Source: Siphlonurus alternatus
Lineage: Eukaryota > Arthropoda > Insecta > Ephemeroptera > Siphlonuridae
Reading direction: 5' to 3'
DNA length: 64,000 nt
Assembly (NCBI GenBank): GCA_949825025.1
Contig: OX463787.1
Span: 19,501,482 to 19,565,481 of the forward strand
In this document: piece by piece, positions 11,550-58,669 of the stretch
How positions within the stretch are numbered: the stretch's first letter is position 1
Layout: every line of letters starts with the position of its first letter
Notes under the pieces: model-generated
What the model was told of the DNA's origin: nothing
The model's input: only the letters and a program-made list of their open reading frames with translations
Database searches by the model: none
Position numbers and translations under genes: made by a program

Positions 11550-12237
11550 TTTTTTTTTTTTACAAGGATACACCCCTTAGAGCTTATAGCTCGCGGCGAG
11601 GTACTGGGTAGGGATATAAGGTAGGGAACGGATAGTGGCCACGGCCTGCATGCTTACGCGTCCCAGCATTCGCAGAGGTGCGATTGAGGGAACCGTGGAA
11701 AACCTCAGTCAGGACGGACACCTTTACTTTTTCTCAATGGACCAAAGCGATTTCCAAAGCCTGGGGAACCACACACAAGTGCATCACTGCACTGGGTGGA
11801 AAGCGAGACGAATTTACCCCAGGGAGGGAGCAGCGTATTTTTTACTTGAAACGGTCACCCATCCAAGTACTAACCACGCTCGATGTAGCTTGACTTCGGT
11901 GATCTAACGAGAACCGGTCAATGCACTGCGCCAATAATATTATTATTAAAAAAATAATAATTAATAATAATAATAATATTATTATTAATAATAATAAATA
12001 AATATTTATTTATTTATATTTATTTATATTTATATATATTTTATATTTTTGTATAGATATGTATTATATAAATACATATAACTATACATATAATACTATA
12101 TATATATATAGTTATATAATATTATAACTATATTATAAATGTTATAATAAATATTATAATTTTATATAATTACGGTCCAATAATTAATAATAATTATAAT
12201 AATTAATTAATTTTTCTCTCAATAAAAAAATCGATAC

Positions 12238-20600: not shown

Positions 20601-21014
20601 GAATATTAAATTTTAAAAAAAATATCAAATAGTTAAATATTTTGTTCAATTTGTTGATAGACTACTAGTCATTTAAAAATCCTATTTTATTGTATTAAAA
20701 TCTTTGTAAGTAGTTTTTTTAATTATATGTAATAATAATTTCTAGTTTAGATGGGTGTGACGGGGATATTTTTATTATTTTCTTAGTCCGTGGGTACTTT
20801 TAATTTTATCATTAATTTAAACAATTTATTTTGTAATTTATGATTAAATTTTGTGTTGTATTGCTTGATTTATTTAAGGTAAATATTTGAAGGAAAAAGA
20901 AAAACGTATTTTATTTTAATTGTGAGTTGTTCACTGTACATTTTATTATAGTTATCATTGAACAACTTTTTATTATTTCCAGAAAAATTGATATCTTTGT
21001 ACAAGCATTGTTAA

Positions 21015-21476
21015 AGGTGAACTGAAGGGATTGCTTTTTTTTCCCATTAGGGAACCTTATACTACCTATCCCATCCATCTGCACTAATTTTTTCATGGCA
21101 GATACTTATTGTGCTGCTGTAGGACAATTAGTGAAAAAGTGAAGTTGTGACGTATCAGCGACGGTTGGTTGACTTAAAACTCGCCGCCGTGAAAAAACAC
21201 ACGAGCGACCGCGGAAACTGCCGAGGGAGCGGCGATCGCGAGCCGATCGCCACTCCCTCGGCAGTTTCCGCGGTCGCTCGCGGTCGCTCGTGTGTTTTTT
21301 CACGGCGGCGAGTTTTAAGTCAACCAACCGTCGCTGATACGTCACAACTTCACTTTTCACTAATTGTCCTACAGCAGCACAATAAGTATCAGCCATGAAA
21401 AAATTAGTGCAGATGGATGGGATAGGTAATATAAGGTTCCCTAAAGGGAAAAAAAAGCAATCCCTTCAGTTCACCT
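21015..21476. mobile_element. 462 bp near-perfect palindromic element with TTAA target
   Basis: Ends AGGTGAACTGAAGGGATTGC and its reverse complement, with arms of about 225 bp that stay paired to a small centre near 21245. The right arm has one extra 10 bp unit (CGGTCGCTCG). TTAA flanks both sides (21011-21014, 21477-21480), and copy B has a single TTAA in the uninterrupted sequence. TTAA suggests piggyBac-type transposition, but the repeat phase also permits a TA or 3 bp target. Overlapping ORFs on both strands only reflect the palindrome. Confidence 0.92.
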
Positions 21477-21533
21477 TTAAATAATATTTCTTATATTTTT
21501 AACGAAGCATTTAAATAACACAATGTACTATAC

Positions 21534-21544
21534 TTAAAATATAA
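21534..21544 (+). repeat. LINE target-site duplication, left copy
   Basis: TTAAAATATAA here and at 26497-26507, single in the copy-B empty site. The first T's could come from the (ATT)n tail, so the true length is 8-11 bp. Confidence 0.85.
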
Positions 21545-21566
21545 GTATAGTATAGTATAAATATAT

Positions 21567-21685
21567 GTCTACGGCCATATCACGTTGAATGCACCGGTTC
21601 TCGTCCGATCACCGAAGTTAAGCAACGTCGAGCGCGGTTAGTACTTGGATGGGTGACCGCCTGGGAATACCGCGTGCTGTAGATG
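21567..21685 (+). rRNA. 5S rRNA-derived sequence at the LINE 5' end
   Basis: 119 nt running from GTCTACGGCCATATCACG through GTTCTCGTCCGATCACCGAA and GGTTAGTACTTGGATGGGTG to CGCGTGCTGTAGAT. All parts of metazoan 5S are present, including the helix I pairing of GTCTAC with GTAGAT and the A box, intermediate element and C box. No T-run terminator follows, so Pol III would read through. It is part of the LINE insertion (see the empty site), so it is not an ordinary chromosomal 5S gene. It may act as the element's promoter or be a template-switch capture. Confidence 0.9.
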
Positions 21686-22809
21686 TAAAATTTGGGGGCG
21701 TGGCTTCGGCGGCCATCTGTATAGACGTGCTCTGTATCGGCTTACAATTTACTACTTAATTTGTTGGTGTCTACGGTTTATATTGGCAAAATAACTTACA
21801 ATACTTATTGTAAACTCTTCATCTACTGTTTTGTGATCTTATATTTGATTATCTTATCTGCAGTTGTGAGTAATCTTTAATATTGTTACCTTCGAGGTCA
21901 CCCACTGTCCTGTGACAGTTCTACAGAAAAGCGATGCAGCTTCCATTATTAACGTGAGTTATTGCCTGCAGTAAACATATAAATATTATTTGTTTCATCT
22001 GCAAACATTTTACAAACTTTGTGCTATATACTTCTAGTGCAAATTATTATAAATTATATGTGATGTCAGTTAATAAAAGCACGCCCCTTCTACACAAAAT
22101 CGACTCGTCCAAGTAAATTTAACCAGTTGGCCTGCCGCCTACCTGACATTTTTTTAACTACTACCTGTGCGCATGCGCTCAAAGGAAGTTCCTTGCGGTC
22201 ACTCTAGTCTCTAGTCTCAGCGTTACTCCTTCACTCTCTGCAACCCGCACTACATTCACGCACGGAGGGTTGCGGAGATTCAGGCGCTTGAATATTTTGG
22301 ACGCACTGTGAACTTCTAGAACTTCACATCCGCATAGAGAGATCCGTTTGCGTACTCTATGGCGGGCAGTTGTTCGTCCTAGCGGCTTGCAAGTGCCCCG
22401 TGAAGAGAAGTCGGGCATGTCGATTGACCTAAGTCCCGTGAAGATGCTGAAAGTAGATGTCGTCTGACCGCCACGAGCCGATGAATATGATGTGAAGACT
22501 GTACATACTGTGATATTGACTGATTATTGTTGTAAAAATTTTAAGGTATTTTTCTAGTATATTATTCATATTTATTAAATTCTCTGGTGTCTTTTTTTTT
22601 TTTCTAAACCAGATTTTATTAAATTGTATTCAGTAACTATTATATAAATTTTGTAAATACTTTTTTTTGTTTGCTTATAGTATTCGCTCTTGTAGTACTC
22701 TTTTGGTCTACGGGGTTGAATGGCACAGTTTTTAATGTATTTATATGTATTTTTTTTTTAATCTTTTAATATTTTAATTAGTGTCACTTTGTTTATTGCA
22801 ATAGGTAAT

Positions 22810-25800
22810 ATGTCAAATTATCATATCATTGGGTTGCTCTTACTTTTTTGTTTCTCTTTTAACGCAGGGCATTATGCGGATAATTATTACCGCTATAGGT
22901 ACTATGAGTATCGGGTTCTTGAATTTGCTTATGAGAGATTTGAATTCACAATAAGAAAAGTGCCTAAATTGCATGTCCCTTGTTGGCTTTATATATGGGA
23001 TTTATGGCAGCGACCGAGGGAGGGGAGTCGTCGCTTACGACGCTATATGTTCCTGAGGCATCGGCGGCGAGTGAGACATGAGGGGCGACACAGGCAGCGT
23101 TGCTTTTTGCCGGATGGGGGTTTGCCGGAGCGCTTACCCAGACCACTCCTCGTACGTTACCTCACTCAACTCATTCGTCGTCGCCTGCTATTGTCTAGCT
23201 TACATGCTTGGTACTTTTTTATACTGTTGTTATTGTGTAATGATGTGGAGCTAAACCCTGGACCTCCTCGTATTTGTTTTTGTTGTCAAACGGCGGGAAG
23301 AAAGAACCAGATATTTATTAACTGTAGTAAATGTCATAATTCAGTTCATAGAACATGCTCTAAAATTACTCCCGTCGATTTCCGCAAATACAGGAGGGGA
23401 TTTAAATGGTTCTGTTGGACATGTTCCTTACCTCAGCTCTCCGATTCATTCTTTAGTAATTCTTCAAATGAATCTTTTTCAATTTCCTCTATATGCTCTT
23501 CTACACGTTTACTTAATTCTAATGTATCTTTAAAAGTCCTTTCATTCAATGCTCGTAGTTTGTGTTGTCCTAAACATCACAGTGACACACTAGCTTGGAT
23601 TAAAAGTGTAAACCCAGATATATTATGTATATGTGAAACGTGGTTGTCGAATGATGTGACGGACAGTCAAGCTCTGCCGGATGGTTACACTATATATAGG
23701 AGAGATAGACCATCTGGTGCATATGGAGGTGTTCTATTGGCAGTAAAAAGTGACATACAATCTATGCGTATGTCACAGCTTGAGACTGAGGCTGAAATTG
23801 TCTGGGCTAGTGTTACTTGTGGTAAACATAAAATATTGGTAGCGTCTGCATATAGATCCCCAAATAGTTCTGCTGTTGATAATTCCGAGTTAATTAAGTC
23901 CTTAAATCTTGCATCAGAATTACAAGTAAGTTTTGACTCTACACTTGTGTTGGGAGATTTCAGTTTGAATGTGGACTGGGGTAATGATATGCCGAAGGAC
24001 AAGATTGGCAGTGAGTTCCTTGCTGCTTTTTATGATCTTTTCCTCACCCAATTAGTTAAGCAAGCTACAAGGATTTCAAACACATCTAGATCTATATTAG
24101 ATTTATTGTTAACATCTGATCCTAATCTAATATCAAATTTAAATATTGTACCTAGTTCATCTGATCACCATGCTCTCAATTTTGATATCAAAATAAATCC
24201 AGTGCGTACTAAGCCTGTAAAAAGGTACGTTCGTAATTTCAAGAGAGTTAAGTGGGAAGATTTGAAAACTTGTTTCCTTAATAATCTACCTGTTGATTTT
24301 AATAAGTTTGCAAGTGTGGATGATGCATGGAGTCATTGGCATTCAAAATTTAATGATTGCATTGATTTGCATGTGCCAAAAACAATAATTAAACGTAAGA
24401 ACATTCATCCTTGGATTAACAGTGGTATTATTAAGGAAATTAAAAAACGTGATCGTTTGTTCAAAAGGTGCAATATGAAACCTACTGTCGAGAATTGGGA
24501 GCGCTACAGAATTTTGAGAAATAAGATAAAAAAGATGATTCGGTCTGCTTTTGATAACTTCATGTGGTCACTTAGTAAAGCTTGCAATTGTAAAATTTTA
24601 TGGAGATATTTGCGAGCCAAGTTTAGAAGTTCTCAGCCACAGACTTTTAAGGATAATGGTAATGTCTTGTCCTCTGATTCAGAAATATGTAATGCTTTTA
24701 GTAACAAATTCAAAGCAAATTTTTCTAAGAGGATGAAGTCTGACATTTGTGCTCCATCTCCAATAATTGATGGACCTAAGTTGTTGACATGCAATTTTAC
24801 GTCCATGGATGTAATGCATAACCTTCTGTTAATTAGGCCTGATGCATCCTGTGGTCCAGATGGTATACCTGCCTTGGTTCTTCGTAATTGTGCTGCTGCT
24901 TTGGCTCCTTCACTTTCTGCATTTTTTAACTATTCTATGTCCCATGGGATAGTACCAAAGGGGTGGAAAGAAGCAAGGGTAGTCCCTATACACAAATCTG
25001 GACCTAAGGATGACATATGCAATTACAGACCTATTTCCCTTACATGTCTTGTTTCTAAGTGTATGGAGAGAACACTTTGTAAATCTATTTTGGCACACTT
25101 AAAAGCAAATGGGCATCTAAATAAGAATCAGCATGGGTTTTTGCCAGGTAGATCGTGTACTACTATGCTCGCTCATGTCATTGATGAATGGATGTTTGGT
25201 TTAAATAAGAAAAGTGTGAGGCAAATTGATGTTATATCTCTGGATTGGGCCAAGGCGTTTGATGCCATACCTCACGAACGTCTTGCACACAAGATTTGGA
25301 GATGTAACATTAGAGGTAATGTTAAAAAATGGCTTGATTCGTTTTTGTCTGAGCGCACGCAAACAGTTGTGTTCAGGGGTGTGTCGGCTGATCCTGTTGA
25401 AGTCACATCTGGTGTACCTCAGGGATCTGTTATCGGCCCTTTGCTCTTTACAATATTCATGCTAGATCTTCCTGATTGTGTGTCTTCATCAATTTCAGAA
25501 TATGCTGATGACAGCACATTGAGTAGAGAGATCACAGGTATTGAGGACACTGAGGCCCTTCAGGAGGACTTGCATTCAATATCGATGTGGTGTAATGTGA
25601 ATAATTTAATGTTGAATGCTGCCAAATGTTTGTATATTCGTTTAACTAGATCTGCTAATCCTATAACTGTATCTTACTCTGTTAATGATGTTTTGATACC
25701 AGAATGTAAGCAGCTTAAATTACTGGGCATTACAATTACTTGTGATTTGAAGTGGAATGTCCAGACAGAAAATGTAAGAAAAAAATCAATGAAAGTATTG

Positions 25801-26292
25801 GGTATGTTGAATAGGAGTTTTAAAGGGGCCAAGCCTAGTGTAAAGCGAATGTTGTACATTGCATTGGTTAGGTCTTTGTTAACTTACGGCTTGCCTGCAT
25901 GGCACCCTACCTCTGCTTCCAATATTCAGAAGCTCGAGCGTGTTCAAAGTCGTGCTTCTCGTTTTATTCTTGGTCATAGGAAGTATGATAAATGTGATGA
26001 CGCCTCCAAGCGGCTCGTGTCTTGTAATTTGGTAAATGTATTTGATTTATGCAGATCAATTGATGTTAAATTTATTACCAAATGTATTTCAGGTGCTTAT
26101 GATTTTGAAGTGTTTAGTGCTAACAGAGTGATAGTGAAATCCCGTAGGGATGGTTTGCGTGGTGATAATGTTACTCTTACTACCCCCAAGTGTCATTCAG
26201 ATGCTTACCTTCATTCTGTTTTCCCTAGATTGATTTCTGTGTTTAACTTGCTACCTGAATCTATTAAGAGACCGTATTTGGACTTATTATGA
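22810..26292 (+). CDS. LINE polyprotein: 2A-like leader, zinc finger, AP endonuclease, reverse transcriptase
   Basis: 1160 aa from the first ATG. The frame stays open 21 nt upstream, but only through a TTG codon. Residues 1-25 are hydrophobic and an Arg-rich stretch follows. Residues 144-152 read DVELNPGP in context LLLLCNDVELNPGP, matching the 2A ribosome-skipping consensus. A PHD-like Cys/His finger fills 156-205 (CFCC, CSKC, H-x-x-x-C, CWTC). The APE endonuclease spans about 241-455, with FNARS, CETWL, GDFS and SDH (451-453). The reverse transcriptase follows, with HGFLPGRS, LDWAKAFD (811-818), GVPQGSVIGP and YADD (898-901), then the RSLLTYGLPAW and LERVQSRASRF thumb region. No ORF1-like gag is separate. 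GDFS for the usual GDFN is the one odd catalytic-region residue I noticed. It copies its RNA at nicked target DNA in the nucleus. Confidence 0.95.
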   Translation: MSNYHIIGLLLLFCFSFNAGHYADNYYRYRYYEYRVLEFAYERFEFTIRKVPKLHVPCWLYIWDLWQRPREGSRRLRRYMFLRHRRRVRHEGRHRQRCFLPDGGLPERLPRPLLVRYLTQLIRRRLLLSSLHAWYFFILLLLCNDVELNPGPPRICFCCQTAGRKNQIFINCSKCHNSVHRTCSKITPVDFRKYRRGFKWFCWTCSLPQLSDSFFSNSSNESFSISSICSSTRLLNSNVSLKVLSFNARSLCCPKHHSDTLAWIKSVNPDILCICETWLSNDVTDSQALPDGYTIYRRDRPSGAYGGVLLAVKSDIQSMRMSQLETEAEIVWASVTCGKHKILVASAYRSPNSSAVDNSELIKSLNLASELQVSFDSTLVLGDFSLNVDWGNDMPKDKIGSEFLAAFYDLFLTQLVKQATRISNTSRSILDLLLTSDPNLISNLNIVPSSSDHHALNFDIKINPVRTKPVKRYVRNFKRVKWEDLKTCFLNNLPVDFNKFASVDDAWSHWHSKFNDCIDLHVPKTIIKRKNIHPWINSGIIKEIKKRDRLFKRCNMKPTVENWERYRILRNKIKKMIRSAFDNFMWSLSKACNCKILWRYLRAKFRSSQPQTFKDNGNVLSSDSEICNAFSNKFKANFSKRMKSDICAPSPIIDGPKLLTCNFTSMDVMHNLLLIRPDASCGPDGIPALVLRNCAAALAPSLSAFFNYSMSHGIVPKGWKEARVVPIHKSGPKDDICNYRPISLTCLVSKCMERTLCKSILAHLKANGHLNKNQHGFLPGRSCTTMLAHVIDEWMFGLNKKSVRQIDVISLDWAKAFDAIPHERLAHKIWRCNIRGNVKKWLDSFLSERTQTVVFRGVSADPVEVTSGVPQGSVIGPLLFTIFMLDLPDCVSSSISEYADDSTLSREITGIEDTEALQEDLHSISMWCNVNNLMLNAAKCLYIRLTRSANPITVSYSVNDVLIPECKQLKLLGITITCDLKWNVQTENVRKKSMKVLGMLNRSFKGAKPSVKRMLYIALVRSLLTYGLPAWHPTSASNIQKLERVQSRASRFILGHRKYDKCDDASKRLVSCNLVNVFDLCRSIDVKFITKCISGAYDFEVFSANRVIVKSRRDGLRGDNVTLTTPKCHSDAYLHSVFPRLISVFNLLPESIKRPYLDLL

Positions 26293-26496
26293 ATGTGTTA
26301 ATCAGTATTTTGACGAAGTAGTTGTTTTTCATTTGAAATATCTGATATTATTATTGTTGTTATTTTTTGTGTGGGTGACTGGACACTTTAGTGAATGGGA
26401 TATCCTTTTTCACGTCACCCATTGAGTTGTTGTACTGTTTTTTTTTCTGTACTGATACTCAATAAACAACTATTATTATTATTATTATTATTATTA
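26293..26496 (+). other. LINE 3' UTR with AATAAA and (ATT)n tail
   Basis: 178 nt of 3' UTR (GTGTGGGTGACTGGACACTT region) and AATAAA at 26461-26466, then about nine ATT units. Microsatellite rather than poly(A) tails are typical of CR1/L2-type elements. Neither SINE family in the window shares this 3' end, so this LINE is not their obvious partner. Confidence 0.85.
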
Positions 26497-26519
26497 TTAA
26501 AATATAAACGTGTTGTTAT

Positions 26520-26705
26520 ATTATAAGTGTTGCTAAATCTTATTTGGTAATATAATATGCGAATAAACATTTCGTATAACCAGTTCTTCCATAAATTTAT
26601 TTCCGCCTTCTCACTACAACACAACAAACTACTTGTTACAAGGTTAAGTTCACGCTGCCTTTAGACATTATTTGTATGTTTAGAGGAGTGTATAGTAGAG
26701 CCAGC
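26520..26705 (+). repeat. Dispersed repeat R200 (copy-B counterpart about 47600-47795)
   Basis: Ordered blocks GTGTTGCTAAATCTTA, GAATAAACATTTCGTATAACC, ATTTCCGCCTTCTCACTACA, CTACTTGTTACAAGGTTAAG, AGTGTATAGTAGAGCC. Same family as 19148. Confidence 0.7.
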
Positions 26706-26884
26706 ATAAATGTAGTACTGGATATATCAATAACGTGCTGTACTTTTAACAATATTAATTTCCTTTTAAATCAAACCCTATATATAAAACTGAGTACTTG
26801 TACTTATAATATTACTAAATACGCACTAACTGTGAGTTTGAAACTCCGAATATTTCGAAATCCTATAACTTCAGCGTTTCGCAG

Positions 26885-27224
26885 GTTCATCCGGAACGGG
26901 GGCAGCAACGGATTTGTAATCCATCCCAGCATTTGTCTGCAACTTAAAGAAAAGTAGAAACCTCAGCCAGGATGGACGCTACAGCTTTTGTCTATGAACT
27001 GGAAGTACATTTACAATGTCTACGGTTTAATCGCAAAATGTCTATTTTGACCGCTAAAGGGCTGCTGAGAGAGCCGCGCTGATTGGCTGATGAACCGGAA
27101 GTGCAATGGTCTAAATTTAAGGATACCAAATGGTGGAAAAGCGCAACGATTTACCTCTGGGTGGAAAACTTATTTTTTCTTGAAAATGGTCACCCATCCA
27201 ACTACTACCCACGCTCGGCGTTGC
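26885..27224 (-). mobile_element. Diverged 5S-headed SINE, minus strand (copy-B counterpart about 47967-48325)
   Basis: The 5S head remains at 27189-27224 (plus-strand GGTCACCCATCCAACTACTA, then CACGCTCGGCGTTGC). The shared SINE core remains at 26918-26975 (ATCCCAGCATTTG, AACCTCAGCCAGGATGGACG). The segment between them differs from other 5S-SINE copies. Confidence 0.65.
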
Positions 27225-27326
27225 TTAAAATATAGATAACATGCAGAAATATGAATAAGAACTGGAAGGAACTTTGTCATTTTTCAGTTTTTCCAACGAA
27301 TAAATTAAATTATATTTTTTAACGAA

Positions 27327-27600
27327 CCCTAGCTGGAAAATTACGTCTTCAACTCATGCCTTTACACCGTGTTTATACCTAATATTTTTAACTCTTATAC
27401 ACATATTATTTCCCCTTCACTCAAAAAGAGGATGAAATGAATATGATAATATTTCTAACATTTTATGCTCAATATGAAGAAAGAATACGTAATCTCGTCT
27501 TTTCCGTCTTTTTTCCTCTAAAATGGTGCAAAATAAAAGGACAAAAGACGAGAGGGGAGCTTAATAGCGAAGTAAAGATGATATTTATTTCAACTCGGGT
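27327..27600 (+). mobile_element. CTAGTT-family MITE, copy 1 (copy-B counterpart 48426-48699)
   Basis: Ends CCCTAGCTGGAAAATTACGT and ATTTCAACTCGGGT, inverted repeats of the form ACCC-AGTTGAA. Internal hairpin arms are GACGAGAGGGGAG and CTCGTCTTTTCC. Non-coding. Confidence 0.8.
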
Positions 27601-27604
27601 ATAA

Positions 27605-27745
27605 GTGGGGCAAAATCTTACATGGTACTAAAAAAAATTATTTCGTGAAACCAGTTCGTGAATAAATTATAATCCTCCTCTTCGCTACAAATATTGTTAC
27701 AAAGTTAAGTTTAAGCACCACTTGGAGGTTGTTATTTCTATTTAT
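27605..27745 (+). repeat. Dispersed repeat R200, short copy (counterpart about 48705-48845)
   Basis: GTGGGGCAAAATCTTACATG, ATTTCGTGAAACCAGTTCG, CCTCCTCTTCGCTACA, TGTTACAAAGTTAAGTTTAAGC. It directly follows a CTAGTT MITE. Confidence 0.65.
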
Positions 27746-28261
27746 TAATAAAAAATTAGTGATGTACTATAATACGACTTGAGCTGTAACCACATGCAAA
27801 TTTTAGCATATTTTTTTAATCAGTTTTTTCGTAATAAATCTTGAAAATTTCTTATGATAATTTAACATGGATGATTTATCAAGATTTTTTTTACAGAAAA
27901 TCTAATTCGAAAAAAACAAAAAAATCTCAAAGTTTGCATGTGCTTAAAGCTTAATTCATAGAACATTGCTATATTTTTTTTATACCAATTAACGCAGTAT
28001 TTTTTTTTTTAGATAATATATATCAAGGGTCTTTGTCAGGTAAGGCCTAATGTTAAGCGACGCGCTCATTCAGACTTTTGATTTTTTTTCTGGAGAAACT
28101 ATTTGAGATGGATTTTTTTTGGATTTCAGGACCACTTTAACTTGAGTTAGACTGTACTAACTCAACTTTTTTTCTCGTGCGAACTTTACTTAAAAAATTA
28201 GTTCATTTTTACAAGAATTTTTATAAAATCGGTGCAACGCTTCATAAATTTTATAATAAAC

Positions 28262-28452
28262 ATTGAATTAAGTGTGGCCAAATCTTACATTGTATTTTGC
28301 AAATAAATATTTCTTGTAACCAGATGAAACTAGTTCCTCCATAACTTACATTCCGCACCTTCCTGCTAAGAAACAAGTACTCGTATTCAAGGTAACGCGC
28401 TCTCTAGAAACTCTTTTTGCATATTAAATTTGAATATGTCGAAAGGAGAGTA
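28262..28452 (+). repeat. Dispersed repeat R200 (counterpart about 49355-49543)
   Basis: AAGTGTGGCCAAATCTTACA, TTTCTTGTAACCAG, CTTACATTCCGC, GTAACGCGCTCTCTAGAAAC, GGAGAGTATAGTGG. A CTAGTT MITE starts a few bases after its end. Confidence 0.7.
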
Positions 28453-28458
28453 TAGTGG

Positions 28459-28797
28459 TCCCTAGTTGAAAAATTACGTCTTCAACTCATCCTTTACACG
28501 TCTAAACCTAATCTTTGAACCTCTAAAATACATCTTATTTCCTCTTCGCTCGAAAAGTAAGAATAAAATGAAGACAATATATCCAATATTTTATGTTAAA
28601 GAAGAGGAAGAAAGATGAGAGGAGACCTTAATAGATGAAATTATTATTTATTTTAACTCGGGTGAGCATAAAATGCTAGTAAAATTGGGTTTCTCTCATC
28701 CTCACTTTGTGAGCAAAGAGGAAATAAGATGTGTTTTAGAGGTAAAATATTACGTTTAGACGTGTAAAGGATGAGTTGAAGACGTATTTTTTTCAAG
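28459..28797. mobile_element. CTAGTT-family MITE, copy 2, with an inverted half-copy (counterpart 49548-49890)
   Basis: 28459-28662 is a complete short copy. 28680-28797 is a half-copy in the opposite orientation (GTTTAGACGTGTAAAGGATG, then GAGTTGAAGACG), so the pair can fold into a larger palindrome. Confidence 0.75.
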
Positions 28798-29020
28798 TAA
28801 GGAAGCTTAACATTTCAGCCTATTTTTAGAAGAAATATCATATAAATTTGACTGTAAATAATTGACATAGATGAAAACAATCACTTTTGACTGCATTTAA
28901 AATCATGTATTTTCGTCTTTTCGTGAATTATGATTCAACAAACAAATGAAGTAGCCGGAAGTAAAATAATTTTGGTTCACTAATCACATACAAACTCTAG
29001 GATACTACAAATATATTAAC

Positions 29021-29347
29021 GATTGACCTCAGTTACTACGCGAGTCAAAGGAAATTTCTGCCTGGGAGAATTGAATGAAATAAATTTTAAAAAATCGAGA
29101 ATGCTCTAAAACTTATTCGCTTATGGTTTGAGCAGATTCAAGGTGACAGTTTCCTTACAACAGCTCCATTTCCGGTTTCCGTCTATAAGACCAATGTTAA
29201 ACTTCTACCCCAGTTTTCTTAAAACTGATAAAACAGATTCATTTCAAAATTTACATGCCACCTTTATTGATGGTGAGTTCTAAGTTCTCTGCAAATCTTG
29301 TAGCATTTAAGGGGGCCGATTCTGAGATCTCAATCAACTGCGAGGTC
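29021..29347. mobile_element. GATTGACCTCAGTT-family MITE, uninterrupted (counterpart 50109-50438)
   Basis: 327 bp, starting GATTGACCTCAGTTACTACG and ending CAACTGCGAGGTCAAAC. Matches 17975-18595 except for the nested hairpin there. Confidence 0.8.
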
Positions 29348-29416
29348 AAACCTTAAACCCCTAATGTAAATTTCCTCTTCATAGTTTCTGGTTCAAAACT
29401 GAAAGAAACCTCACAT

Positions 29417-29856
29417 TGGACAATTTGCACCAATTTTTTTTACTAGCTCAATCGAAAGAGGAGGTCGAAAAATACACTTGTGTATTTTATGAGATTTTTA
29501 TTCGTACTGCATCATGGCTAAAAGAGAGGTCACGTGACCTGGAGGCGTCGCCCGCATCGCCTATGACGTCATTGAATTGTTCGGTCAAACAAACGATCGA
29601 CTTTATAACGCTTGTAAACAACCACGTTGCTATGGAAACAAGCAACAGTTAATTTAATGATAACAAGCGTTATATAGACGATCGTTTGCTTGACCAGACA
29701 TTGGTGACACGGGCGCCGCCTCCAGGTCACGTGACCTCTATACATCCCTATTTTAGTCATGATGCAGTAAGAATAAAAATCTCATAAAATTCATAGTTGT
29801 ATTTTTCGACCTCCTCTTTCGATTGAGCTACTAAAAAAATTGATGCAAATTATCCA
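29417..29856. mobile_element. 440 bp palindromic MITE, GAAAGAGGAGGT subfamily (counterpart 50505-50944)
   Basis: TGGACAATTTGCACCAATTT at the left is the reverse complement of the right end AAATTGATGCAAATTATCCA with few changes. The arms of about 200 bp include CAATCGAAAGAGGAGGTCGA and GAGGTCACGTGACCTGGAGG. Internal TGACGTCATTGAA and the GAAAGAGGAGGT block also occur in the 1.95 kb foldback at 53397, so they belong to one broader family. Confidence 0.85.
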
Positions 29857-29929
29857 TTCCATGCATTTGCTTTAAAAAATTTGTGAAGAAACTGTAGCAG
29901 TGTTTTTGTTTTTTCCAGTCCCTGCTAAA

Positions 29930-30130
29930 TCAATGTCTAAAATATCCTACCTAGCAATCACCTGATTATGACTAAGGAAACCATGGACACCTCAGTAAAG
30001 TTGGTCGGTAATATATAGATGAAGGATGAATCACAATCTGGATGTACGAGTGTGTTTCTATTTGTAATCAATCGCCATGTTGTAAGGCAAATTGCTGGGA
30101 TTAAACTGACGACCCTCTGTTTACGAAGCA
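29930..30130 (-). mobile_element. Diverged tRNA-headed SINE, minus strand (counterpart about 51030-51218)
   Basis: Retains CACCTGATTATGACTAAGGA, GTTGGTCGG, GGATGTACGAGTG and TGCTGGGATTAAACTGACG in SINE order, with many changes. Confidence 0.65.
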
Positions 30131-30144
30131 AAATATAAAGTATA

Positions 30145-30348
30145 CCCTAGTTGAAAAATTACGTCTTTAACTCATCTTTTACACGTCTAAACCTAATCTT
30201 ATACCTCTAAAACACATCATATTACCTCTTCGCTCAAAGTAAGGATGAAATAAAGACATTACTTCAAACATTTTATGTTCAAGAAGAGGAAAAAAGACGA
30301 AAAGAAAGAAGTGAAGTGAAGAAAAGATGAAATTTATTTCAACTCGAG
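30145..30348 (+). mobile_element. CTAGTT-family MITE, copy 3, with TA target (counterpart 51233-51436)
   Basis: TA at 30143-30144, then CCCTAGTTGAAAAATTACGT; right end TTTCAACTCGAG followed by TA. TA duplication and short inverted ends suggest a Tc1/mariner-type MITE. Confidence 0.8.
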
Positions 30349-30410
30349 TATTATAAATGATGTTGTTTGCAATTAAAAAATGTACATCAATACCAGTATT
30401 TTTTTTTTCG

Positions 30411-30731
30411 CTTCAACGGAACCCTGCTGTGGGTACTGGCCACAATTAAGTGACTGAATTTAACCTCCCGGCTTTTTTTAGACCCTACTTTTGTGAGTCC
30501 CTTCCAAACCTAGGCGGCCGTGGCATAAGCAATCCATGCCAGCATTCGCCTGGTTGTGACTGAGGAAACCGTGTAAACCTCAGTCATGATGGTCGGCAAT
30601 AGATGGAGGATGCCATCAATTACCTCCCGGATGCACGAGTGGGTGTTCTTTAGAAACCGCCATTTGTAAAAAGTTTGGCGGTGCATGGCTGGGATCGAAG
30701 TCACGACCAATCCGATTACAAATCAAAGACG
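30411..30731 (-). mobile_element. tRNA-headed SINE, minus strand (counterpart about 51500-51815)
   Basis: The plus strand shows the 3' end (AACCCTGCTGTGGGTACTGG), the core (CCAGCATTCGCCTGGTTGTG, ACTGAGGAAACCGTG) and part of the head (GGGATCGAAGTCACGACC). The first about 30 bp of the head is degraded. Confidence 0.85.
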
Positions 30732-31115
30732 TCGACTTTTTTATAATACTTACTTTAGAAAACAATTAAAGTAAAACTTTTCAATTATTTTTGTTAACAA
30801 AACAGTGAAATAACATGATATTAGAGTTACAAATAGAGGCTGCAAGTGTTTCCGGAGGGAAAATTTTCTCCATAAGCCACCATGCTAGAAAATTTGAATT
30901 TTTTCTCTGTAACTATTAAAGCAATAAATTTGAATTCATCTCCTACCCCCCCCCCCCCCCATTTAGCGATCTTCTGATAATGAATCAAGAACTTATTTTC
31001 CTCTAAAAAATTCCTTAAATGCCAAAAAAAAAATTTGCTTTATTTCTACATAGGTTTAGGTAGAAAGGTAGGAACAACGCAAAATTAGCTGACTTGAAGC
31101 CTCTATATAAATTTA

Positions 31116-31325
31116 ATGTGATGTTATAAAAGTGTGTCTAAATCTCATATGTCAATCTGCAAATAAACATTTCGCGAAACCGGTTCCGCAATATGTTTTT
31201 TATTTCGCCTGCAGACACAAAACCACTTCTTGTAAATTCAAGGCTAAGTTCAAGCGGTCTCTAGACATCACTATGTATCTTGCATATATATTTGAGTATG
31301 TATAGAGGAGAGTATAGTCGAAATA
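31116..31325 (+). repeat. Dispersed repeat R200 (counterpart about 52203-52412)
   Basis: AAGTGTGTCTAAATCTCATA, AACATTTCGCGAAACCGG, AGTTCAAGCGGTCTCTAGAC, GGAGAGTATAGTCG. A CTAGTT MITE follows 45 bp later. Confidence 0.7.
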
Positions 31326-31369
31326 ATGTAATATATAATAATTAATTTATTAATAATTATGTATTGGAA

Positions 31370-31637
31370 CCCTAGTTGAAAACTTGCGTCTTCAACTCAT
31401 CCTTTACACGTCTAAACTTAATTTTTTACCTCTAAAACACATCTTATTTGTTCTTCTCTCAAAGTGAGGATGAAATGGAGACAATATTTCTAACATTCTA
31501 TGTCCAAGAAGAGGAAAAAATACGTAATCTCGTCTTTTCACCTCTTTTTCCTCTAAAATGGTGCAAAATAAGAGGAAAAAAGACGAGAGGAGAGTTTAAT
31601 AGTGAAGAATAGATGAAATTTATTTCAACTCAAGGGT
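31370..31637 (+). mobile_element. CTAGTT-family MITE, copy 4 (counterpart 52457-52724)
   Basis: Starts CCCTAGTTGAAAACTTGCGT, ends TTTCAACTCAAGGGT. Inner inverted arms GAGGAAAAAATACG and CTCTTTTTCCTC. Confidence 0.8.
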
Positions 31638-31664
31638 GTTTAAAATTTTCCTTATTCTTTGGAA

Positions 31665-31905
31665 GCCAGAACGGCAGTGGTTAAATTATCCCAGCAAGTA
31701 TTCGCCTGCATGTAACTCAGAGAACCGTGGAAATCTCAAATACGAGGTTTGGTAGTTCATGGAGGATGTTACTCAAACCGTATGCACACGTTGGTTTTCC
31801 TTTTTTTAAAAAAAACGCAATCATTAAAAGTTTGGCAATTCCTGCGTAGTATATAATGCACGATTACGAAGCAAAGATGCATAACGATGCATCAAGTGCC
31901 AGACT
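31665..31905 (-). mobile_element. Diverged tRNA-headed SINE, minus strand (counterpart about 52750-52993)
   Basis: Plus-strand remnants of the body are ATCCCAGCAAGTATTCGCCT and AGAGAACCGTGGAAATCTCA. The head is CGATGCATCAAGTGCCAG. The middle is rearranged. Confidence 0.6.
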
Positions 31906-32002
31906 TAACTGATATATTTATAATACTTTTTATGATTGATAATTAAAGCGTGTAAAATTTTTTTGAGCATTTCAACTTGTTAACAAATTTTTTATCAACA
32001 CT

Positions 32003-32350
32003 TGACGCAGTGGTATGCCAATCTGATTCATAATCGGATGGTCGTGAGTTCGATACAAGCAATGCACCGCCAAACTTTTCACAAGTAGCGGTTGCTAAAG
32101 AACACCCACTCGTGCATCCTGGAAGTGATTCATGGCATCCTCTATCAATTGTTGGCCATCCTGACTGAGGTTTCCACGGTTTTCTCAGTCACATATATGC
32201 AACCACGCGATTGCTGAGATGGATTGCTGAGGCCACGGCCGTTCTAGTTTGGAAGGGACCCACAGAAGTAGGGTCTACGAAGAGCCGGGAGATTAAATTC
32301 AGTCTAATTGTGGCCAACAACAGGGTTCAGTTAAAAAACTATAAAAAAAA
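32003..32350 (+). mobile_element. tRNA-headed SINE, full length, plus strand
   Basis: Head ACTTGACGCAGTGGTATGCC, then GAGTTCGATAC; body ACACCCACTCGTGCATCC; core TCCTGACTGAGG-TTTCCACGG-TTTTCTCAGTCACA; 3' part AGGGACCCACAGAAGTAGGG, GGGTTCAGTTAAAAAACTA and an A-rich tail. Its copy-B counterpart (53090-53396 plus 55347 on) is split by the 1.95 kb foldback. This copy gives the empty site. Confidence 0.9.
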
Positions 32351-32849
32351 ACATTTATTCAATTGTTTGCTTTGCAGATCCTAATTTAAAAGTCTTGAAT
32401 TATATAATAATATTAAAAGTTTAATGTTAAAAATAATAGTGCATTTAGACAGAACTGATATCAGTATAGCTATAGAGGCTTCAAGTTGTCCCCGGCAGGA
32501 AAATATGGCTCCATAAGAAACCATGTTACAAAAAGTTGTATTTTTTCTCAGTAACTATTCAAAATATTAATTTGAAAATGTGTCATACTCATTCATACTT
32601 CCCCTTTTATTAGGGGTCTTCTGAAAATGAATCATGCATTAAAAAAAAAATCTATTTCAAATTAGTAAAAATACAATTCCGAGATTTTTTCATTTAGGTT
32701 GGAACACAGCAAAAACAGCTGACTGATATTAATATTATACTTTTTAATCATATTTTGGAATTGATTAATTTTGTTTTACTTATCATGCATCCTCAACTAT
32801 AATTAAAAAAAGGCTTAAAATTTAAAACATAAAAAACATTAAAAAAAAT

Positions 32850-33095
32850 TAAATTTTAACTCATCTTTTACACGTCTAAACCTATTCTTTTTACCTCTAA
32901 AATACATCGAATATTATTTCCTCTTCGCTCATAGTGAGGATGAAATGGAGAAAATATTCCTAACAATTTATGCTCAAGAAGAGGAAAAAAGATGTAATCT
33001 CGTCTTTTTCCCTCTATAATTGTGCAAAATAAGAGGACAAAAGACGAGAGGAGAGCTTAATAGCGAAGAAAAGATGAAATTTATTTCAACTCGGT
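32850..33095 (+). mobile_element. CTAGTT-family MITE, copy 5, left end missing (counterpart 55889-56135)
   Basis: Begins TTTTAACTCATCTTTTACAC and ends ATTTCAACTCGGTA. The first about 20 bp of the family are absent. Confidence 0.7.
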
Positions 33096-33098
33096 ATT

Positions 33099-33406
33099 TT
33101 ACACAGCAAAGTCTTCTACTCGCAATGGTGGTAACAAACCATTGTTTATAATGTCTATCGGATGAAGCCTTTTTCATTGTTAAACATAGGACGACGTAGT
33201 GTCTAATTTTGCCACCAGATCAGAGAACTTAATGGCATTGTTGGCGCTAGGCAACAACAACAACAACTTCAAAATTAACGGTCATTTTCCATAAGTTAAC
33301 ATGTAAATCAACAACCGTCCCATGTTTTTCCTTTCACGCGACAGACATTACACAACAATACTTTGTTTACTAACAACGAGCAGAAGACTTTGCTACACAG
33401 TGTAAT
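33099..33406. mobile_element. Inverted-repeat element with AGCAAAGTCTTCT ends (counterpart 56138-56445)
   Basis: Left ACAGCAAAGTCTTCTACTCG, right CGAGCAGAAGACTTTGCTAC. An inverted relative sits at 36690-36955. ATGTAAATCAACAACCGTCC and GACGACGTAGTGTCT are shared between the two. Confidence 0.75.
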
Positions 33407-33674
33407 TTACGATAGAGGAAATACACAAGCACGTTACCTTGGTTTTCCCCAACATCGACGCTCAGTTGTTCGGTCAACGGCCAGACAAGAACTGATGAGC
33501 CAGAGAGAATTTAGTTAGCAACAAACCTGTTCACCTCCAGTCAGGTATAGTCACAACTAGAATTAGTGGAATTATTTATACACTTGTTGCATAGGAGCAG
33601 AGACGCAATGCTACGAAACTTCGCCTTGAATCTTCGCCGCGAAACTTCGCCACGAATGCCGTAAAACTTCACCG

Positions 33675-35464
33675 CACGGAAAAAAAACTTCACTTAATTT
33701 AAGGCTTAACCTGAGAAATTTGGACGAAAAATTCGCTACAACAGATTTTCTTCAAATTAATTTGGTGGACTTACAACAATCGTCAAATTAGCTCTGAATT
33801 TTTTCGGAATTTTTTAACCGTTGGTTTAATTATAATTAATTTATTTAAATGAGAATTTTGTATCCTTCCAATGTTAAATTTGTTAATTAGCATTGCAAAA
33901 AAACTATACAACAGATTCTTTTAGTTTTTTTTTTACTAAAACCTAATTTTTTAGACTATTTTTCTGAATTGTTTTCATATATTTTGAACCGTGGCGATGA
34001 TCGTTTCCTATATGTGATGAGAAATGTGGCAACGTTCTCAAGGACTGATGTCACCACCCCCTCCTAAAAAATTATTCGCATTCCAATGCAAACAGTGTTG
34101 CCACTATAGCCACGCCTCTTGACCTTGACAGACAAATTCTCAGGTTATACCTTAAGCGAAAATCAAGCGAAAAGTTCTATTGGTTTTGACACAGCTGAAT
34201 TTTTCATTTGAACCGAACGAACGCTTTCGCTTAAAAATATGAAGCTATTTGAAATGAACTTTCATTTACAACAAAAAGAAAATTCGCTTGGTGTAAACGA
34301 AATCCAAGGTGTGGGTCAAACGTCAGATCGCTTGTCCCGAGCAAAAAAATAGCTGACCTCAAGAGTGCCCATCGCTTGTAGTGAAGGAGCTGCAGCAGCT
34401 ACCGCAAATGAAAAATTCGCTTAGAATAATTGAAGTGGATTCTTGTTTCAAAATTTGCTTTCCCTTGATTTAAATAATGTTTTTCATATTTTTAAGCGAA
34501 AAAGTTCGTTCGAAGCAGCTCGAAAATTCAGCTGTGTCATATTCAATAGAACTTTTCGCTTGATTTTCGTTTGAATTAAGTGAAGTTTTTTTTTCATATT
34601 AACTTAATGTATTGTGCATTTTTACATTGGGATTTTTTTACTTACACATGCGCTTATTTCACTCATGATTGCATAATTAAATAAAAAAAAAACACACGAT
34701 TTATTGTTATCATCTTAAAATTGTCACAAAGTGTCACAACATCATCACTTTACACCAATTTATACTTAGTAGGCACATGCATGTAATTCTAACCGGCCTC
34801 CATTTCTGATCAATCACTGAGGTTATCCGGTGACGCTCCCAACACAATTATATAAACTAACTTTGTACTTACTGTGTAGTCACGTTAAACTATTGTAATT
34901 TAGTTCACATAAATGCCTGGGATAACCTGGGCATTTCGGACCTAATAAGTATATTTAGATAATTAGATATTATAACTATTTCATCACTTCGAATCACAGA
35001 CACTTATAACTTCCAGAACAAGTGGCCAAAGACTGCCAGCAAACATGGTAGGTAGGAAGTGCACGCGGGACTGCAGGTATAAAGCGAATTCTTGACCCAC
35101 TTTGCTTCTAAATTCCAAAATAAGCAATTGAATCATTTATTATAAGCGAGTTGTTCGTTTACATTTTAAATGAAGTATTTCGATTGTATCAAGCGGTCAA
35201 TTTTTCAAACCTTCCCTTCTTCTAAACGAAAACTTCATTTCAAATAAACGAAAATTTCAAGCGAATTCATTCGTTTGAATTAAGTGAGATACTTTGCTCC
35301 ATGTAAATGAAGTATTCACTTGTGCTGCAACTGAAATCTGTTGTTTGGATCAAACGATCAACTTTTGCGAGTTCAGTCTAAACGAGTGAAAAAATCGCTA
35401 CCTCTAAACGAAAATATTTAAGCGAAATATTTCGTTTAATCTAAATGAAATATTTTTTTCCGTG
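33675..35464. mobile_element. 1.79 kb non-autonomous DNA element, CACGG ends (CACTA/EnSpm-like candidate)
   Basis: Ends CACGGAAAAAAA and TTTTTTTCCGTG, flanked by CG on both sides (33673-33674, 35465-35466). The copy-B counterpart near 56712 is continuous (CACCGCAAAACTTTG). Both ends are rich in short motifs of the AAGCGAAA / TTCGCTT / AACGAAA type in both orientations, as expected of subterminal transposase sites. A nested inverted repeat (AAGCGAAAATCAAGCG at 34154 and CGCTTGATTTTCGTTTG at 34557) occupies the left half. No transposase ORF. Confidence 0.85.
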
Positions 35465-35530
35465 CGCAAAACTTTGTTACCGATTTTATTACTTGCTATT
35501 TTCGCGAGTCTAGTTCACGCGGTTGAGCGC

Positions 35531-35916
35531 GGCGCAGTGTATTGACTGGTTCTCGTTAGATCACTGAAGTCAGGCTACGTCGAGCGTGGTTAGTACTTAG
35601 ATGGGTGACCGTTTTAAGTTAAAGTAGCCTCGGTTAAATTCGTCTCGCTTTCCACACAGTGGAAGTGATGCACTTGTGTGTGGTTCCCCAGGCTTTGGAC
35701 ATCGCTTTGGTCCTTTGAGAAAAAGTAGAGGTGTCCGTCCTGACTGAGGTTTTCCACGGTTCCCTCAGTCTCACCTCAGTGAATGCTGGGACGCGTAACA
35801 TGCCATGTCCACCTGGTCCACCATCCGTTCCCTACCTTATCCCTGATCCCTACCTGTTATACCCCGCCGTGAGCTGGAGCTGTAAGCTCTTAGGGGTGTA
35901 TATATATATATATTAT
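35531..35916 (+). mobile_element. 5S rRNA-headed SINE, full length (counterpart 56778-57163)
   Basis: Head GGCGCAGTGTATTGACTGGT, TCTCGTTAGATCACTGAAG, GGTTAGTACTTAGATGGGTG; body TTTCCACACAGTGGAAGTGA; shared core with GACTGAGGTTTTCCACGGTT and CCTCAGTCTCACCTCAGTG; tail GAGCTGTAAGCTCTTAGGGG and (TA)n. Length about 385 bp. A 63-codon frame across it is not a gene. Confidence 0.92.
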
Positions 35917-35994
35917 ATTTAAAAACAAAACAAAAAAAAGAATTATATTTTTGAATTTCTCGTTTAATTTTTTCGACATTTATTTAAGGGTGTG

Positions 35995-36338
35995 GTGGTA
36001 ATAATTAAGCTCAATGTTAAAAAAAAATACTTCTTATGAAAATTATGAAACATGTTATATATCTTAAGATTTTCTCCTTTATATTCCCTATCATTGTAGC
36101 TAAAATATGATATATTATGGATCGAGTTACAAACTTTTAAATTTGACTAATTTAACATTGAAATTCTATTTCTCCATGTTAAATTAGTCAACTTTAAATA
36201 TTAATAACGCGAAAATTATATCGTATTTGTATACCTGATATTTTAGCTATATATACTGACAGAGGAGAAAATTTTAACTTTTTTTCATAATCTTCATATG
36301 AGGATTTTTTTTTTACATTGGCCGTGTTACCTTACCAA
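35995..36338. mobile_element. Palindromic MITE, about 344 bp (counterpart about 57240-57585)
   Basis: GGTGGTAATAATTAAGCTCA with the AATGTTAAAAA stretch pairs with the right end TTTTTTACATTGGCCGTG-TTACC. Inner TTTGACTAATTTAACATTG pairs with CATGTTAAATTAGTCAA around the centre at about 36170. Confidence 0.75.
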
Positions 36339-36407
36339 TTATTAAATATTGGTAGGCAATATTTTTATATTTTGCGAACGATTCACGAAAGTTGCATATC
36401 TGCTTTG

Positions 36408-36476
36408 CAGCCTTGTTAATCACCATGCCCCATAAAAATAACACAACACAGCACATGGTGATTAACAAAGCTGCAA
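36408..36476. repeat. Stem-loop, about 20 bp arms (counterpart about 57784-57852)
   Basis: GCAGCCTTGTTAATCACCATG-type left arm pairs with CATGGTGATTAACAAAGCTG, with a 25 nt spacer. Confidence 0.8.
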
Positions 36477-36554
36477 GAAGAAAATTTTCCAAAGCAAGCA
36501 ATATGCTTCGGAATCTAAAACAATGCGTAAATCGGTTTTTAAATTATCACTGAT

Positions 36555-36640
36555 GACAAGCAAAGTGTTGTAGTCATTGGATAGGTGACCGTTTTGAAAA
36601 AAAATCACACTTTTTCTACCCAGGAGTAAATTAAACTCAA
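36555..36640 (+). pseudogene. 5S-SINE head fragment (counterpart about 57945-58010)
   Basis: GTAGTCATTGGATAGGTGAC followed by CGTTTTGAA and TCTACCCAGGAGTAAATT. It resembles the 5S internal promoter and the start of the 5S-SINE body with many changes. Confidence 0.5.
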
Positions 36641-36689
36641 ATTTTTTTGCTTGATTCAACAATACTTTATTTTATAAACAAGTTTAAAT

Positions 36690-36955: not shown

Positions 36956-37230
36956 TAATTCTTTATTGGGCGATAATAAATATTAAAGTCGGGATCATTA
37001 TATAGTTCAGTGGGATCATTTAACTTTGTTTTGACCCTCCAATTAGTTTTGTATTGGAGGACAAAGAAAAAGTTTCGTGAGGTCAAATAAAAGATAAATG
37101 AAGACGATTTTATAAGAGAAAGAGAAAAAAATGTTAGATTAAATAAATTGAAATTCCAATAGAAGCATGCATTTATAGCACATCAAACATAAAAATATTG
37201 TTAATAAAGAATATAGCTTTTTTTTTAAAT

Positions 37231-47116: not shown

Positions 47117-50100
47117 GAATATTAAATTTTAAAAAAAATATAAAATAGTTAAATATTTTGTTCAATTTGTTGATAGGCTACAAGTCATTTCAAAAAACCC
47201 TATCTTATTGTATTAAAATCTTTGTAAGTAGTTTTTTTAATTATGTGTAATAATAATTTCTAGTTTAGATAGGTGTGACGGGAATATTATTATTATTTTC
47301 TTAGTCCGTGGGTACTTTTAATTTTATCATTAATTTAAACAATTTGTTTCGTAATTTATGATTAAATTTTTTGTTGTATTGCTTGATAAATTTAAATATT
47401 TGAAAAAAAAAAAGAAAAACGTATTTTATTTTAATTGTGAGTTGTTCACTGTACATTTTATTATAGTTATCATTGAACAACTTTTTATTATTTCCAGAAA
47501 AATTGATTTCTTTGTACAAGCATTGTTAAATAATATATCTTATATTTTTAACGAAGCATTTAAATAACACAATGTACTATACTTAAAATATAAACGTGTT
47601 GTTATATTATGAGTGTTGCTAAATCTTATTTGGTAATATAATATGTGAATAAACATTTCGTATAACCAGTTCTTCCATAAATTTATTTCCGCCTTCTCAC
47701 TACAACACAACAAACTACTTGTTACAAGGTTAAGTTCACGCTGCCTTTAGACATTATTTGTATGTTTAAAGGAGTGTATAGTAGAGCCAGCATAAATGTA
47801 GTACTGGATATATCAATAACGTGCTGTACTTTTAACAATATTAATTTCCTTTTAAATCAAACCCTATATATAAAACTGAGTACTTGTACTTATAATATTA
47901 CTAAATACGCACTAACTGTGAGTTTGAAACTCCGAATATTTCGAAATCCTATAACTTCAGCGTTTCGCAGGTTCTTCCGGAACGGGGGCAGCAACGGATT
48001 TGTAATCCATCCCAGCATTTGTCTGCAACTTAAAGAAAAGTAGAAACCTCAGCCAGGATGGACGCTACAGCTTTTGTCTATGAACTGGAAGTACATTTAC
48101 AATGTCTACGGTTTAATCGCAAAATGTCTATTTTGACCGCTGAAGGGCTGCTGAGGGAGCCGCGCTGATTGGCTGATGAACCGGAAGTGCAATGGTCTAA
48201 AGCCAAGGAAAAAAGCCAAGGAAACCAAATGGTGGAAAAGCGCAACGATTTACCTCTGGGTGGAAAACTTATTTTTTCTTGAAAATGGTCAACCATCCAA
48301 CTACTACCCACGCTCGGCGTTGCTTAAAATATAGATAACATGCAGAAATATGAATAAGAACTGGAAGGAACTTTGTCATTTTTCAGTTTTTCCAACGAAT
48401 AAATTAAATTATATTTTTTAACGAACCCTAGCTGGAAAATTACGTCTTCAACTCATGCCTTTACACCGTGTTTATACCTAATCTTTTTAACTCTTATACA
48501 CATATTATTTCCTCTTCACTCAAAGTGAGGATGAAATGAATATGATAATATTTCTAACAGTTTATGCTCAATATGAAGAAAGAATACGTAATCTCGTCTT
48601 TTCCGTCTTTTTTCCTCTAAAATGGTGCAAAATAAAAGGACAAAAGACGAGAGGGGAGCTTAATAGCGAAGTAAAGATGATATTTATTTCAACTCGGGTA
48701 TAAGTGGGGCAAAATCTTACATGGGACTAATAAAAATTATTTCGTGAAACCAGTTCGTGAATAAATTATATTCCTCCTCTTCGCTACAACTATTGTTACA
48801 ATGTTAAGTTTAAGCACCACTTGGAGGATGTCATTTCTATTTATTTATAAAAAATTAGTGATGTACTATAATACGACTTGAGCTGTAACCACATGCAAAT
48901 TTTAGCATATTTTTTTAATCAGTTTTTTCGTAATAAATCTTGAAAATTTCTTATGATAATTTAACATGGATGATTTATCAAGATTTTTTTTACAGAAAAT
49001 CTAATTCGAAAAAAACAAAAAAATCTCAAAATTTGCATGTGCTTAAAGCTTAATTCATAGAACATTGCTATATTTTTTTATACCAATTAACGCAGTATTT
49101 TTTTTTTTTAGATAATATATATCAAGGGTCTTTGTCAGGTAAGGCCTAATGTTAAGCGACGCGCTCATTCAGACTTTTGATTTTTTTCTGGAGAACCAAT
49201 TTGAGATGTTTTTTTTTATTTCAGGACCACTTTAACTTGAGTTAGACTGTACTAACTCAACTTTTTTTCTCGTGCGAACTTTACTTAAAAAATTAGTTCA
49301 TTTTTACAAGAATTTTTATAAAATCGGTGCAACGCTTCATAAATTTTATAATAAACATTGAATTAAGTGTGGCCAAATCTTACATAATAAACATTTCTTG
49401 TAACCAGATGAAACTAGTTCCTCCATAACTTACATTCCGCCCCTTAATTCCTGCTAAGAAACAAGTACTCGTATTCAAGGTAACGCGCTCTCTAGAAACT
49501 CTATTTGCATATTAAATTTGAATATGTCAAAAGGAGAGTATAGTGGTCCCTAGTTGAAAAATTACGTCTTCAACTCATCCTTTACACGTCTAAACCTAAT
49601 CTTTTAACCTCTAAAATACATCTTATTTCCTCTTCGCTCGAAAAGTAAGAATAAAATGAAGACAATATATCCAATATTTTATGTTCAAGAAGAGGAAGAA
49701 AGATGAGAGGAGACCTTAATAGATGAAATTATTATTTATTTTAACTCGGGTGAGCATAAAATGCTATTAAAATTGTGTTTCTCTCATCCTCACTTTGTGA
49801 GCAAAGAGGAAATTAGCTGTGTTTTAGAGGTAAAGTATTACGTTTAGACGTGTAAAGGATGAGTTGAAGACGTATTTTTTTCAAGTAAGGAAGCTTAACA
49901 TTTCAGCCTATTTTTAGAAGAAATATCATATAAATTTGACTGTAAATAATTGACATAGATGAAAACAATCACTTTTGACTGCATTTAAAATCATGTATTT
50001 TCGTCTTTTCGTGAATTATGATTCAACAAACAAATGAAGTAGCCGGAAGTAAAATAATTTTGGTTCACTAATCACATACAAACTCTAGGATACTACAAAT

Positions 50101-58668: not shown

Positions 58669-58669
58669 T

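Follow-up and report, generated by a model that had tools for sequence, protein, structure and literature searches.

Background

In the available part of Law and Burns 2026 (PMC13174262), 27 5S/LINE-1 insertions are described from mammals, typically antisense and truncated, with a target-site duplication (TSD) in 20 of the 27. The same part of that source describes U6/LINE-1 insertions, which are in the sense orientation and in which U6 is mostly full-length and the LINE partner is frequently 5′-truncated, and it ascribes sense small-RNA/LINE-1 chimeras either to a switch of template or to RNA ligation. For a fungal LINE, MGL of Magnaporthe, chimeras formed by template switching are described in the portion of Gogvadze et al. 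2007 (PMC2104539) that is accessible. 5S-derived sequences are also known as heads of other elements, and Kojima 2024 (PMC10886601), in its available text, covers SINE3 and Cassandra, both with 5S heads, and brings in Ajax as a further case.

The locus described here lies in a stretch of 64,000 nucleotides from Siphlonurus alternatus (the window), where a complete, sense-oriented 5S rRNA sequence stands at the 5′ end of a LINE. As in the U6/LINE-1 chimeras outlined in PMC13174262, a full-length Pol III small RNA is joined in sense to a LINE 5′ end, in one insertion and with a bracketing TSD; unlike in those chimeras, the small RNA is 5S, the LINE is a non-L1 element bearing a 2A sequence, and the LINE is full-length rather than, as frequently there, 5′-truncated. 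The likeness to the mammalian 5S/LINE-1 chimeras of the same partly available source is that 5S is joined on the 5′ side of the LINE, whereas here the 5S is sense and complete and the LINE full-length, and there the insertions are typically antisense and truncated. With the Magnaporthe MGL chimeras, as far as the accessible text of PMC2104539 goes, the locus shares template switching by a non-mammalian LINE, one MGL case being TSD-flanked, but the partners of MGL are WEIRD RNA and Mg-SINE rather than 5S. In SINE3, too, the 5′ end of a retroposon is formed by a head derived from 5S; SINEs, however, are non-coding and propagate with their head, whereas this LINE encodes an ORF and its other found copies are headless, which places it outside SINE3. 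In a literature search that took in few subscription journals, we found neither a LINE family starting with 5S nor a full-length, sense 5S/LINE chimera outside L1. The original prediction knew of no LINE with a 5S-derived 5′ end, a remark that is overtaken by the 5S/LINE-1 chimeras in print in the part of PMC13174262 cited above.

Results

Searching the window with Rfam gave a single match above the gathering score, a 5S rRNA (RF00001) at 21567-21685 on the forward strand (112.2 bits, E 6.8e-24), and its alignment covers model positions 1-120 with zero non-standard pairs marked. Chance similarity to 5S was rejected on this E value, and the prediction that the LINE begins with a near-complete 5S sequence is borne out, the sequence being complete against the Rfam model. 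A tRNA search of the window found none, and a Pfam scan of 10 of the window's 33 other ORFs of at least 90 aa gave no match. Octamers common to the 5S and the LINE 5′ UTR had prompted a test for further 5S relics in that UTR; the alignment score was at the level of noise, with equally high scores in 638 of 1000 sense-strand shuffles and in 370 of 1000 shuffles of the other strand. The features of the locus are collected in Table 1.

Table 1. Coordinates of the insertion, its target site and related features, in positions of the window
Feature	Position	Strand	Basis
Left TSD TTAAAATATAA	21534..21544	+	11-mer repeated at 26497 and at empty site 47583
22-nt AT-rich filler between left TSD and 5S	21545..21566	+	Sequence reading
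Host 5S rRNA sequence, nt 1 to about 121, complete, without terminator	21567..21687	+	Rfam and host 5S loci
Junction As (5S 3′ end, LINE 5′ end or untemplated addition)	21688..21690	+	C10, C1 and C3 ends compared
LINE 5′ UTR, own 5′ terminus about 21689-21691 as in C3 and C1	21691..22809	+	Genome copies compared
GGCGGCCATCT, candidate YY1-like site	21708..21718	+	Single occurrence in window, both strands counted
LINE ORF, 1,160 aa, ATG at 22810	22810..26292	+	Stop-to-stop frame 22762-26292
LINE 3′ UTR with predicted hairpin	26293..26471	+	Sequence reading
(ATT)9 tail	26472..26498	+	Sequence reading
Right TSD TTAAAATATAA, first two bases ambiguous with tail	26497..26507	+	11-mer match
Empty site in sister segmental duplicate	47526..47686	+	Comparison of duplicates
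5S-headed SINEs, five copies	4068; 11852-11918; 27188-27228; 35545-35611; 56792-56858	minus for 11852 and 27188	

The 11-bp TSD TTAAAATATAA is present at both ends of the combined unit and occurs a single time, at 47583, in the empty site, where both the 5S and the LINE are absent, while a fourth occurrence in the window lies at 62725. Joined across the insertion, the flanks agree with the empty site in 135 of 137 bases; the left flank is identical to the sister duplicate at 67 of 68 positions, and the right flank is 97.6% identical to it over a 5833-column alignment with 99 mismatches. A single TSD together with an empty site points to the arrival of the small RNA and the LINE in one event, and a 5S already present at the target before the insertion was rejected, as the empty site has none. 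These results uphold the original prediction in placing an empty site at 47.56-47.62 kb, in having one duplication bracket both 5S and LINE, and in having the 119 nt of 5S arrive with the LINE. Its extent for the element, 21545..22809, is refined at two points: AT-rich filler of 22 nt separates the left TSD from the 5S, and the element continues to about 26497. By parsimony, the insertion is younger than the segmental duplication.

That duplication (20601-37990 and 47117-62740) consists of several collinear pieces with copy-private insertions and is useful for dating. About 55 nt upstream of the LINE TSD lies a palindromic, TTAA-bracketed insertion of about 465 nt (21012-21480) that is missing from the sister duplicate; from its sequence it looks like a TTAA-type MITE or foldback element, which we would liken to piggyBac.

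The LINE encodes an AP endonuclease and a reverse transcriptase in a single ORF, as an APE-type non-LTR retrotransposon does. Its product contains, in order, a 2A-like DVELNPGP (from 23242), a PHD-like Cys/His motif, the AP endonuclease and a reverse transcriptase with YADD, and it matched PF00078, PF14529 and PF03372 in Pfam (RVT_1 and endonuclease domains) as well as LINE-1 ORF2p chains. Its protein relatives number 84, and the nine highest-ranking of them show 37-52% identity. The element is placed as an APE-type non-LTR retrotransposon, putatively of a CR1/L2-like group; for the clade itself (CR1, L2, Daphne or another), the (ATT)n tail and the PHD-like motif are no more than hints. About 20 nt inside the LINE's own 5′ end sits GGCGGCCATCT; on the opposite strand it is similar to a YY1 site like that of human L1, and this candidate site may mark an ordinary Pol II start. 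A segment of about 140 nt of the 5′ UTR (22322-22464) is matched at 93-94% at C9:732675 and C11:8805447 without the rest of the UTR, and more weakly at further loci, and is perhaps a conserved module of related LINEs. 2A-like sequences in non-LTR retrotransposons are mentioned in the available part of PMC4981915.

The genome to which the window belongs (455,680,777 bases, or 455.7 Mb, in 102 contigs) was searched for further copies. In the first search, which listed the best matches first, 40 of 990 candidates were scored and yielded 64 matches; in a second search with the UTR only, 11 of 11 candidates were scored and yielded 12 matches, and repeat counts from these searches are lower bounds. 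The LINE 5′ UTR was found at at least four places, namely C10 (the window copy), C3, C1 and C7 (in two pieces, split by another insertion), and the other seven matches of the UTR search are short fragments of 74-94% identity. Relative to C10, C3 differs at 32 of 4779 aligned bases (0.67%) and C1 at 38 of 4773 (0.80%); the long open frame of C10 is kept in C3 and is shorter in C1 and C7. The LINE of C3 starts at query 3 (window position about 21691) and that of C1 at query 1 (about 21689), each preceded by unrelated DNA, and no 5S was found in the 1.5 kb upstream of either. Neither of the two other found copies that reach the 5′ end (0/2) thus starts with 5S, and the small RNA is private to C10 among the copies found, its junction there lying no more than about 3 nt from where the LINE normally begins. 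C1 is flanked by a ATTAATTAA repeat in AT-rich DNA, a candidate TSD; no clear TSD was found for C3, which is therefore a slightly weaker model of the normal LINE end.

The C7 copy starts at the equivalent of window position 21711 or so, inside a 5S-headed SINE, with about 22 nt of the LINE 5′ end missing. It was considered as a second, SINE-LINE chimera, and this reading was withdrawn once the remainder of the SINE appeared downstream. Because the rest of such a SINE follows about 20.6 kb downstream, C7 is most likely a LINE 5′-truncated by about 22 nt within an older 5S-headed SINE. Across C7:1282000-1312000, the SINE is apparently split by the LINE copy together with over 15 kb of additional DNA, in which long antisense open frames occur, and the (ATT)n tail adjoins the rest of the SINE at ACATC, a candidate TSD of that length only. 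In separate genome-contig and viral-contig collections, no relatives and no 5S were found; one 19-mer match in a viral contig was judged to be chance because nothing of greater length aligned.

The flanks of host 5S sequences were read at 25 fetched loci, which are the best-matching ones and hence a non-random sample. The 5S of the LINE is identical to all 25 of them over 116 of 116 nt and, at five of the 25, also shares ATGTA up to nt 121, giving an identical stretch of 121 nt that ends at 21687. Every one of the 25 loci has a run of at least five Ts within 25 nt of GTAG (nt 116), and no such run is present in the 5S of the LINE. As the copy ends at about nt 121 without a T-run terminator, mature 5S rRNA, rather than a 5S gene, most likely served as the template; the small RNA is present in sense with probably mature ends. 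Elsewhere in the genome, host 5S sequences occur on many contigs, often as inverted neighbours, with variation at positions 119-120 (ATGC, ATGT, ATAT), and a second 5S class, 91-94% alike, is located on C2 and C5.

On the upstream side of the 5S, the initial 8 nt of the filler, together with the TAA before them, repeat 11 nt of the adjacent upstream flank in inverted orientation, a match reached by 27 of 5000 shuffled fillers. It is possible that this part of the filler originated by snap-back synthesis during closing of the 5′ junction, a foldback origin that we infer. The best other match of the filler within the window is 18 of 22. An origin as the 5′ flank of a 5S gene was rejected, the best match among the 25 host loci being 12 of 22, which 283 of 2000 shuffled fillers equalled. 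Two genomic 5S matches extend 8-9 nt into the filler, at C8:6141342 (query 13) and C4:9512985 (query 14), and the extension at C8:6141342 proved on checking to be within chance. On the downstream side, the one to three junction As are compatible with several joins.

The five 5S-headed SINEs of the window are of differing ages, and those at 35545 and 56792 are a duplicate pair. In their heads, nt 45-95 are kept at 38-46 of 51 positions, as against 12-29 of 44 for nt 1-44 and 15-16 of 24 for nt 96-119. Most of nt 1-44 is absent from two of the copies, those at 4068 and 27188, probably owing to truncation, and the other three keep 28-29 of these 44 positions. Such a pattern has the look of long-term descent as a promoter head, while the 5S of the LINE is intact throughout, as is expected for a fresh copy of rRNA. 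The SINE heads were rejected as the source of the LINE's 5S, since they match mainly nt 45-95. A derivation of the SINE bodies and tails from the LINE UTRs was also dropped: in six comparisons with three SINE copies, 52-133 of 200 shuffles scored as high.

Discussion

We favor, at a probability of roughly 0.84, one retrotransposition event with an end-to-end template jump from the LINE RNA onto mature 5S rRNA. The LINE endonuclease would nick the target, and the reverse transcriptase, starting at the (ATT)n tail, would copy the whole length of the LINE RNA as far as its 5′ end (about 21689-21691). From there the enzyme would cross, end to end, to a mature 5S rRNA with a free 3′ end and copy that molecule to nt 1, and the 5′ junction would be closed with the 22 nt of filler, templated in part by foldback. 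Against such a jump it can be held that just one copy with 5S was found and that the mammalian 5S/L1 chimeras in the available part of PMC13174262 are typically antisense and truncated, unlike C10. Of the two origins that the original prediction had offered, a jump of the reverse transcriptase to 5S RNA is thus retained, and capture of 5S as a transcribed promoter is given up. Copies starting at about 21686 without 5S had been named beforehand as what would speak against promoter capture, and C3 and C1, which start at about 21689-21691, are such copies.

If ligation or trans-splicing had joined the 5S and LINE RNAs ahead of reverse transcription, and the product had then served as a single template, the resulting structure would be identical, and the part of PMC13174262 available lists RNA ligation beside template switching for sense-oriented chimeras. 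We consider this order of events unlikely, as it has no positive evidence here and would need a free, ligatable LINE 5′ end. End-to-end jumping, from R2 biochemistry, requires only a free 3′ end on the acceptor, and we infer that the joining took place during reverse transcription and not by earlier RNA ligation.

A 5S-headed subfamily, in which the 5S would be a captured Pol III promoter carried and passed on by the LINE lineage, is suggested by the position of a complete 5S, internal promoter region included, at the 5′ end, and 5S heads act as promoters in SINE3 and, partly, in Ajax according to the available text of PMC10886601. This family-promoter reading fails on the two closest copies, C3 and C1, which have no 5S, and is further opposed by the undecayed state of the LINE's 5S over its full length, unlike the SINE heads with their conservation mainly in nt 45-95. 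Moreover, the sequence from the 5S to the tail is far from free of Pol III terminators: it holds 47 runs of at least four Ts, 20 of at least five, the longest of 12, and these should stop Pol III, which makes a Pol III promoter role for the LINE family unlikely. Taken as a whole, the subfamily is very improbable.

Insertion in two steps, the LINE first and then a separate 5S retropseudogene exactly at the LINE 5′ end, would leave both bracketed by the LINE TSD anyway, is compatible with the empty site taken alone, and could draw on the TAAAAT that stands 27-32 nt before the 5S and again directly after it. No separate TSD is evident around the 5S, however: the longest words common to its 40-nt flanks are 6-mers, none of them adjoins the 5S on both sides, and at least one common 6-mer occurred in 591 of 2000 shuffles. 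With such 6-mers at chance and no evident TSD of the 5S's own, a single event is a much simpler reading, and a second insertion would also have had to hit a spot no more than about 3 nt away from where the LINE begins, so that two steps are hardly credible. LINEs that target 5S genes exist by name (Mutsu), but a 5′ transduction, with the LINE once directly behind a 5S gene and transcribed from it, has a negligible probability, because C10 has neither terminator nor spacer, its LINE starts at the usual 5′ terminus, and the DNA upstream of C3 and C1 contains no 5S in 1.5 kb and that before C7 merely a SINE head.

Conclusions

The insertion is real, recent and well documented, and it belongs to a known kind, the small-RNA/LINE chimeras; its combination of partners is new, and its record is exceptionally clean. 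It has the look of an isolated accident of an established type rather than of a new sort of promoter. As a natural record of an apparent end-to-end template jump made by the enzyme of a non-L1 LINE, it is unusually well controlled, in that the 5′ end of the donor is given by sister copies, the acceptor is defined almost to the base, the empty site is kept and the event is recent. It shows how a small-RNA head can come to sit on the 5′ terminus of a LINE, which is plausible as a stage by which SINE heads arise, and the genome also contains 5S-headed SINEs alongside the 5S-LINE chimera.

Judged from its sequence, C10 carries an intact 5S promoter region, of putative promoter function, before a complete LINE. 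That this open-frame copy is the founder stage of a 5S-headed element has only a slim chance. If it were, its transcripts, either short Pol III products that stop at the earliest T-runs or long products of Pol II, could seed a new 5S-headed SINE or LINE subfamily, and C10 would present the rarely seen first step in the acquisition of 5S heads like those that the SINEs in the window have.
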